A stretch of 64,000 bases of DNA from an uncultured Pontibacter sp. (GTDB lineage Bacteria; Bacteroidota; Bacteroidia; Cytophagales; Hymenobacteraceae): assembly GCA_947499125.1 (NCBI GenBank), contig CANMMP010000004.1:248001-312000 (forward strand), in the 5' to 3' direction. The notes beneath the pieces were generated by a model. It ran no database searches. It was not told the origin of the DNA and saw only the letters and a program-made list of their open reading frames with translations. Positions 40,254-41,737 of the stretch are shown in pieces (position 1 is the stretch's first letter; the number at the start of each line of letters is the position of its first letter). The position numbers and the translations under genes are program-made.

Positions 40254-40685
40254 CTATTGTATTCTTGTCCAGTTCTGGGTGCGCCCGATAAGCGATATAC
40301 CAATGTATCCTTTTACTTCCATCTTATCCTTGCCTGTCATTTTCATGTAGCACGAATAAGTTTTTCCGCTTTCCGGATCGTAGATCGTACCTTCGTCCCA
40401 CTTATTGTCGCCTTCGTATTCAAAGCCTTTCATAAACTCCATACCTACAAGCGGGCGGTTACGATATTTCTTTTCAGGGTTGTTCTCATCAAGCTTAGGT
40501 TTGCCATTACGCAGCGGCTCTTTCAGACTTACAATTTTACCGCACATCTTGTCGCCACATTTGTAAATCTCGAAGCGGGCTTTTCCTTCTTCATTCGTCC
40601 AGATGCCAACCGGAGACATTTTCTGGGCCCAGGCTAAGGTGCTGAAAAGCATGAGCGCCACTAAAGTGAGCAGGTGTTTTTTCAT
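40254..40685 (-). CDS. DUF2147 exported protein
   Basis: 143 residues with a cleavable signal peptide (LLTLVALMLFSTLAWAQ). The mature domain carries the DUF2147 pattern SPVGIWTNEEGKARFEIYKCGDKMCGKIVSLKEP with a Cys pair, then GTIYDPESGKTYSCYMKMTGKDKMEVKGYIG. It is a periplasmic beta-barrel family (lipocalin-like) of unknown ligand. Common in Bacteroidota and Proteobacteria. Confidence 0.9.
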   Translation of the reverse strand: MKKHLLTLVALMLFSTLAWAQKMSPVGIWTNEEGKARFEIYKCGDKMCGKIVSLKEPLRNGKPKLDENNPEKKYRNRPLVGMEFMKGFEYEGDNKWDEGTIYDPESGKTYSCYMKMTGKDKMEVKGYIGISLIGRTQNWTRIQ

Positions 40686-40994
40686 GATCAGTTAGTTAAT
40701 TGTTTAAAGCAACGAAAAATAATAAAAATAATTCATTTCTGACAGCTTTTTGAACGGCTTCCATAAATATTGCAAGTATAAATTGAAGTACCGTTCATCC
40801 TGTATTATACATTAAGTCAAATTCCGTTCCTAAATGAGTAATAGTAGCCAGCTAATTGAAAGAATACCATTTGTATATTTCTGTACATCAGTAATTTATA
40901 CTTTAAAAGATGCGATTTTATACTTAGAAGGCAGTTTTGTGCAGAATAGGCGAGAGGAAAACTATTTAGAAAATAAATAAAATATACATAACCC

Positions 40995-41025
40995 TTGTGA
41001 ACTTTAAGGCGTTCTTTTATCTTTA
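40995..41025 (+). promoter_or_regulatory. Promoter of the candidate ncRNA
   Basis: TTG (40995-40997), 20-nt spacer, TATCTTTA (41018-41025, seven of eight positions consistent with TAnnTTTG). Transcription would start near 41032. Confidence 0.55.
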
Positions 41026-41127
41026 GATAATAACAGTAGCGAGTGCTACAACTCTGGTCTGATAACCTAATTCAATTTTGGTCGAAGGTTCAGGGTCTAT
41101 GTCGGACTTTAGAGAAAGGAGGTACAA

Positions 41128-41199
41128 ATGTCTAATCCCAAACAAGTTTTAATAAGCCTAAGTAATTGCATTCACCTAAACAGTGAGGCGGCTTCGTAA
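41128..41199 (+). CDS. Possible 23-residue peptide inside the candidate ncRNA
   Basis: ATG at 41128 preceded by AAAGGAGGTACAA, an unusually perfect Shine-Dalgarno for this genome, 6 nt from the start. The peptide begins MSNPKQVLISLS and ends EAAS. No known family. The ORF may equally be incidental to a structured RNA. Confidence 0.35.
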   Translation: MSNPKQVLISLSNCIHLNSEAAS

Positions 41200-41302
41200 A
41201 CGGGATTTTGCTGTTTGCACAGCTAATATTGCTTCAAGGTCTTCGGATGGTAACCTGAACCACAGGTATATCGCTTGTTAAGACTTTTTAGGATTTTTTG
41301 GG

Positions 41303-41341
41303 AACACCTGGTGTAACTTGACGGGCTACATCAGGTGTTTC
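41303..41341 (+). terminator. Terminator of the candidate ncRNA
   Basis: 13-bp stem AACACCTGGTGTA / TACATCAGGTGTT with one G-U pair and an 11-nt loop, followed by TTTCGCTTTT. Confidence 0.7.
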
Positions 41342-41362
41342 GCTTTTATAGCCATCTATACT

Positions 41363-41737
41363 TTATAGGTCGTCTTTATAGATCCTGTTATTACGCAGGC
41401 GCCTTTCCTTTATAAAGCTCCCGATAAACACTCCCGCTGTCAGCAGGCAGCTCAGGCCCATAAAAAATAATAGCGCATGTACCGTATCCCACTCTTCGCC
41501 GGCGGCATTTAAGCGCATAATAATAACTACAGCTGCTAATAAGGTAAGTGCCGTTACCGTGTGCGTTACAAAGCGGTTGTGCTTTTTTAAATGATAAGTA
41601 CTGGCCAGCAGCATAATGCCAAGCCCTGGAGCTACCAAGGCCAGCATGGGTCTTTCGGGATGTATAAAGTATACTATAAGCCCAACTATAATAAGGATGA
41701 TGGCATTAATTGAATTGATGATGTAGGGTTGTAACAT
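41363..41737 (-). CDS. Small integral membrane protein of unknown function
   Basis: 124 residues with four hydrophobic helices (about 10-25, 30-48, 57-75 and 88-108) and a basic C-terminal tail (KERRLRNNRIYKDDL). No catalytic motif and no named family recognised. It resembles small four-helix membrane proteins common in Cytophagales. Its start is directly beside the terminator of the upstream NlpC/P60 gene, so it is separately transcribed. Confidence 0.7.
   Translation of the reverse strand: MLQPYIINSINAIILIIVGLIVYFIHPERPMLALVAPGLGIMLLASTYHLKKHNRFVTHTVTALTLLAAVVIIMRLNAAGEEWDTVHALLFFMGLSCLLTAGVFIGSFIKERRLRNNRIYKDDL

Follow-up and report, generated by a model that had tools for sequence, protein, structure and literature searches.

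A stand-alone RNA gene, delimited by its putative promoter and terminator, occupies positions 41031..41345 (+) of the window, i.e., the whole 64-kb stretch of Pontibacter DNA that was analysed, and is a core gene throughout the family of Pontibacter and Hymenobacter. Judged from its sequence, the centre of this RNA is not non-coding and is a translation start, in which an extended Shine-Dalgarno (SD) sequence, exactly complementary to the 3' tail of the 16S rRNA of the same genome, precedes a conserved start codon and a mini-ORF whose first half also belongs to a covarying long-range helix. The architecture is well supported; the regulatory function proposed here, with a probability of about 0.5, is that of an RNA that would dock on the 30S subunit through the extended SD and so sense, trap or soak up subunits whose 16S tail is exposed.

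The RNA Gene and Its Signals

The original prediction described a discrete, hairpin-rich structured RNA with its own promoter and terminator in a gene-free gap of 677 nt, and blastn, alignment and a covariance model all support such a gene. The gap is ORF-free over exactly 677 nt, between the ORFs at 40254-40685 (-) and 41363-41737 (-). The predicted Bacteroidota-type promoter is found at 40995..41025 (+), with TTG at 40995-40997, N20 and TATCTTTA at 41018-41025, and transcription is expected to start near 41031; this TTGTGAAC...TATCTTTA arrangement is kept across the aligned Pontibacter copies and is similar in the copies of Hymenobacter, Adhaeribacter and Rufibacter. The segment 41028-41345 folds with -97 kcal/mol, corresponding to z = -3.9 against 100 dinucleotide shuffles. 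Folding predicts a 5' hairpin A (GUAGC-GAGU-GCUAC; 41036..41049, +), whose stem covaries in the alignment of relatives (GTGGC/GCCAC, GCGGC/GCTGC), a hairpin B (41052..41114, +) with a variable loop and a 3' strand extending into the SD and, together with the alignment, an internal hairpin D (41195..41217, +, limits approximate) that contains the stop codon of the ORF (41197-41199). The intrinsic terminator with its T-rich tail was located at 41302..41345 (+) by sequence, folding and alignment; the Pontibacter alignment shows its hairpin (about 41302-41341) to be kept, with substitutions compensated, and it is probably bidirectional, given A/T-rich sequence on both flanks and a convergent downstream gene. 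The terminator loop ACTTGACGGGCT (41316-41327) is near-invariant in Pontibacter, which exceeds what a terminator requires.

In agreement with the claimed absence of RNase P, tmRNA and SRP hallmarks, Rfam gave no match in 40686-41400 up to E = 10, the sole gathering-level match in the window being a tRNA. What the original prediction missed are the 16S-complementary SD, the mini-ORF and the long-range helix.

Distribution

The region was found by blastn in 37/37 genomes of the genus, and the covariance model R1, whose E-values are rough, detected exactly one copy per genome in 79/79 sampled genomes of the Hymenobacteraceae-like family, among them genera resembling Hymenobacter, Rufibacter and Adhaeribacter; such conservation greatly exceeds chance. 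Also positive were seven genomes from a second family and two further families of Cytophagales, and R1 had no match in about 300 other genomes of the order. Hosts recovered by the collection scan are Chryseolinea, Ohtaekwangia, Dawidia, Adhaeribacter, Rhodocytophaga, Cesiribacter, Nafulsella and Anditalea. In Bacteroidota outside Cytophagales, hits of a relaxed pattern were no commoner than those of the reversed control and sit within or ahead of ordinary genes.

Copies of the same type were also met in Gemmatimonadota, and five metagenome bins labelled Gammaproteobacteria (L098, L130, L139, L159, L170) that carry a Gemmatimonadota-type copy are probably mislabelled. A SAR324 contig (L171, ~1738-1627, -) has the same SD-ATG-TCTAGTCC start, which opens a frame of 20 codons, and an internal helix; it scores 34.9 bits with R1, shows no visible terminator and is followed by a dehydrogenase gene.

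The Extended Shine-Dalgarno and the Start Codon

The extended SD AGAAAGGAGGU (DNA AGAAAGGAGGT; 41113..41123, +) is complementary without exception, over 11 nt, to the part ...GGATCACCTCCTTTCT of the 16S rRNA 3' end of the same genome (GGCTGGATCACCTCCTTTCT). The computed duplex energy of -17.8 kcal/mol lies within the range of the extended-SD regulon (about -14 kcal/mol or stronger), and reaches -20.1 kcal/mol for the Pontibacter consensus and -25.4 kcal/mol in Gemmatimonadota. Only two AAAGGAGGT-N2-6-RTG sites are present in the entire 3.98-Mb genome, one being the RNA gene. The second, a AAAGGAGGT-N-ATG site (G000:C8:12150-12166, -), lies upstream of a gene for a sodium/calcium-exchanger-like membrane protein.

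The most conserved stretch of the RNA is AGAAAGGAGGU-N(3-6)-[AG]UG-UCU-A[AG]U-CC. The 136 distinct copies start with ATG (85), TTG (42) or GTG (9) and never with CTG, the first base of the start codon being free in the collection pattern and one part of the set having been gathered with A/G only. Copies that were detected by the model and not by the motif keep the start codon and the frame, with an in-frame insertion of a Ser or Asp codon (MSSSP..., MSDSP...) and, in two, a synonymous TCC.

Copies of the Chryseolinea group (L095, L101, L107, L108, L123 and others) have a conserved UUAUGU... about 28 nt upstream of the main start, which is often a mini-frame ATG-NNN-NNN-TAA abutting the SD; an upstream ATGT element is found again in Gemmatimonadota, where it is not invariably an ATG.

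The Mini-ORF

The mini-ORF (41128..41199, +), recognised from the sequence and its conserved start codon, consists of 23 codons plus stop and would encode the hydrophilic peptide MSNPKQVLISLSNCIHLNSEAAS. Pontibacter frames measure 22-23 codons, those of other Cytophagales 18-23 and those of Gemmatimonadota 14-21; they are closed by three different stop codons, whereas in the +1 frame, used as a control, the first stop occurs anywhere from codon 4 to beyond codon 59 and, in the GC-rich Gemmatimonadota, the frame is mostly open past codon 26. The frame is short by selection, its lengths being tight and the +1-frame stops scattered.

The test for purifying selection on the amino-acid sequence, based on synonymous rates in three clades, was negative: synonymous changes amounted to 0.220 vs 0.241 for random, 0.200 vs 0.173, and 0.200 vs 0.209, the middle comparison alone being slightly above random. 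Since synonymous changes are no commoner than random, the peptide does not seem to be the selected product. Between phyla, peptide identity is limited to M-S (MSNPSVVLVSLGNSVHLNGELA, LSSPSTLSSLARASDRRSGS, VSHCLTPRSNALVTWMLASGEACAA), and some copies tolerate frame shifts in the C-terminal part. These comparisons indicate a constraint on ORF length (14-26 codons) and not on peptide sequence.

The Long-Range Helix P0/P1

The coding segment is also one side of a helix that closes with the region preceding the terminator. In P1, the 5' strand GUUUUAAUAAGC (41146..41157, +), within the ORF, pairs with the 3' strand GCUUGUUAAGAC (41273..41284, +), joining codons 6-10 to a segment shortly 5' of the terminator; in P0, AAUCC (41134..41138, +), corresponding to codons 3-4, pairs with GGAUU (41291..41295, +), directly 5' of the terminator. 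The conservation of P0 is partly built in, as GGATT was the 3' anchor on which copies were delimited. The SD lies outside the P0/P1 helix.

Covariation in P1 is extensive: in 42 diverse copies, 11/12 pairs are altered on both sides, with 59 doubly changed cells, a result reached by 0/500 shuffles, and sliding the partner lowers pairing from 92% to 30-51%. Among 58 distinct strand pairs, own strands pair at 11.5/15 positions vs 9.7 +- 0.17 for swapped partners (0/2000), the register in this test having been picked by best pairing. In Gemmatimonadota an independent helix joins codons ~9-12 to the pre-terminator segment, with 5/9 pairs doubly changed and 0/500 shuffles.

Relation to CC2171 and Other Known RNAs

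The RNA had been called unidentified, which is correct in so far as no Rfam family matches it; its layout is nevertheless that of CC2171 (RF01867), an alphaproteobacterial sRNA. Both carry a complement of the 16S tail followed by NTG-UCU, in the window RNA AGAAAGGAGGU...AUGUCU at 41113-41133; both have a helix joining early codons to the pre-terminator segment (CC2171 copies L239-L243); and both are stand-alone intergenic genes. In particular, CC2171 copies from Methylobacterium and Azospirillum replicons, scoring 69-84 bits to RF01867, have a 16S complement of 15-16 nt (-27 to -30 kcal/mol), a GUG-UCU start, a frame of 24-26 codons (22-26 for CC2171 in general) and a helix in which CAUUGYC at codons 3-5 pairs with GRCAAUG in the pre-terminator segment. 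The window RNA differs in being longer, with two extra 5' hairpins, a complement of 11-12 nt and other helix sequences.

At the level of scores, RF01867 (gathering cut-off 75 bits) gave no match in 40686-41400 up to E = 10, and its search of the same genome returned antisense 16S alone (13.3 bits). The nearest link is the Gemmatimonadota copy L148, which aligns full-length to RF01867 at 25.4 bits (cut-off 75), or E = 0.0013 when 361 nt are searched, a score that owes much to the 16S complement, which alone gives weak antisense-16S matches. Common descent over Alphaproteobacteria, Gemmatimonadota and Cytophagales is, from the layout, likely rather than proven. An RF01867 member is among the listed sRNAs of Mesorhizobium, where all annotated non-riboswitch sRNAs were detected by RNA-seq (PMC5596092). 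Most Caulobacter ncRNA regions are reported to be untranslated, two earlier-predicted ncRNAs being exceptions (Schrader 2014, PMC4117421).

The window RNA also recalls other RNA classes, starting with those in which coding and structure are combined. Type I toxin mRNAs and dual-function sRNAs (hok, SgrS) have a short ORF, a strong fold and long-distance pairing between 5' and 3' regions. The window RNA has the same short ORF in a strongly folded molecule with 5'-3' long-distance pairing; unlike them, it has a hydrophilic and unconserved peptide, a single copy at a fixed locus and an SD outside P0/P1. The RNAs 6S, tmRNA, RNase P and SRP are likewise stand-alone, structured and of similar size, but their covariance models do not match, and a conserved start codon with SD is foreign to them.

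Comparison with rpsU

In Bacteroidia ribosomes the 16S tail is buried under bS21, bS18 and bS6 (PMC9976891). The rpsU mRNA, encoding bS21, is autoregulated in Bacteroidia via ribosomes lacking bS21, which initiate better on its extended SD and form unusually stable complexes (McNutt 2023, PMC9976891); the bS21-regulated rpsU duplexes range from -14 to -21 kcal/mol (PMC9976891). The window RNA resembles this mRNA in having an extended SD of equal strength class and normal start spacing in a phylum otherwise not using SDs; it differs in that it encodes no bS21, has a very short and unconserved frame and is a structured RNA of its own.

The organism's own rpsU (G000:C6:98572-98730, L244) lacks an extended SD, contrary to the reported rule for Bacteroidota. 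On rpsU, the extended SD is mostly present in the Cyclobacteriaceae-like family f19 and in family f22 and absent in the Hymenobacteraceae-like family and f5. Within Cytophagales, it occurs in 0/27 RNA-positive genomes of the two main families vs about 20/63 RNA-negative genomes, a trend confounded by kinship; among further RNA-positive genomes with an rpsU match, 22/25 show no extended SD or are readable so. A strict replacement of the rpsU extended SD by the RNA is rejected, as Cesiribacter, Nafulsella, Cesiribacteraceae YIM B00369 and Anditalea carry both, three of them with two rpsU copies. Cesiribacter, Nafulsella and the Cesiribacteraceae isolate (L366/L389, L370/L390, L371/L391) each carry a pair of bS21 genes, of which one or both are preceded by an extended SD.

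Proposed Function and Alternative Explanations

In the mechanism proposed, the extended SD would pair with the 16S 3' tail, with the initiation codon at the usual distance, and ribosomes would translate a frame of about 20 codons. The first half of this frame doubles as the P0/P1 strand that closes with the pre-terminator segment; because the first codons are this strand, ribosome occupancy and the closed fold would be mutually exclusive in vivo. Since bS21, bS18 and bS6 normally bury the tail, the RNA may preferentially engage subunits with an exposed tail, i.e., bS21-poor or immature ones, and so work on these as a sensor, trap or sponge, the functional event being the act of initiation or translation and not the peptide. 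The RNA may act in trans, and its sequence reveals no strong partner other than the 16S rRNA 3' tail. Several points stand against the docking reading: most Caulobacter ncRNA regions are reportedly untranslated, the RNA does not strictly replace the extended SD of rpsU within Cytophagales, the logic of tail exposure holds for Bacteroidota in particular although the layout is shared by Gemmatimonadota and Alphaproteobacteria, and the SD-start unit could simply serve the translation of the peptide.

The latter point leads to a plain mRNA for a protein of 14-26 residues, with a fold that shields the messenger, which would account for the conserved start codon and strong SD and for the highly alike peptides of Hymenobacter (MSSSP[KN]QILPSLSNVVR...), together with the recurrent M-S-[SN]-P start. 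The missing synonymous excess in three clades, the cross-phylum identity restricted to M-S and the frame shifts tolerated at the C-terminus make this explanation unlikely, all the more so as helix covariation accounts for the 5' half of the frame. Slightly less likely still is a classical trans-acting sRNA that would base-pair with mRNAs through AGAAAGGAGGU or through a loop, with an incidental ORF: a single-copy, strongly folded RNA with a promoter and terminator of its own suits this reading, as do the filing of RF01867 as an sRNA and its detection by RNA-seq in Mesorhizobium (PMC5596092), but start codon and ORF length are conserved among clades otherwise sharing little sequence, and a G-rich SD would target CCUCC sites, among which the 16S tail far outnumbers all others.

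It is very improbable that the RNA is the 5' leader or attenuator of a gene further downstream, with the ORF as leader peptide, although attenuators, too, combine a short translated frame with mutually exclusive helices behind it. In Pontibacter the RNA is flanked by a DUF2147 gene and an opposite-strand gene, which in the window is, according to the ORF list and the neighbour survey, the convergent gene of a 124-aa membrane protein (weak DUF6320; 41363..41737, -). Almost every Pontibacter copy is followed by a gene on the other strand, the genes that follow copies elsewhere lie on either strand and have unrelated products, no co-oriented downstream gene is conserved across copies, and the strong terminator is always present. 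Because downstream genes are often opposite-strand and unrelated, the leader reading was rejected, for Pontibacter on orientation alone; the small ORF of the earlier suggestion is real, and the status of a large leader falls with the gene orientation. Chance hairpins in an intergenic gap, with no real RNA, are practically negligible in view of the 79/79 family genomes and the covariation.

Significance

With the docking RNA as the preferred reading, an anonymous hairpin-rich gap becomes a core RNA gene of an entire bacterial family and contains by far the most rRNA-like SD context of a genome whose ribosomes supposedly disregard sequences of this kind. The orphan CC2171 gains an anatomy, consisting of a 16S docking site, a start codon, a mini-ORF and a long-range helix, as well as probable relatives in two further phyla, and the common layout suggests an overlooked class of ribosome-docking RNAs. 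More tentatively, and with less than even confidence, this class would extend over Alphaproteobacteria, Gemmatimonadota and Cytophagales and combine docking on the 16S tail with a throw-away frame of about 20 codons, the ribosome being the ligand of the switch, in order to report or buffer small subunits with an exposed anti-Shine-Dalgarno. The finding raises a testable question, i.e., whether cells maintain a dedicated RNA for sensing or trapping such subunits.
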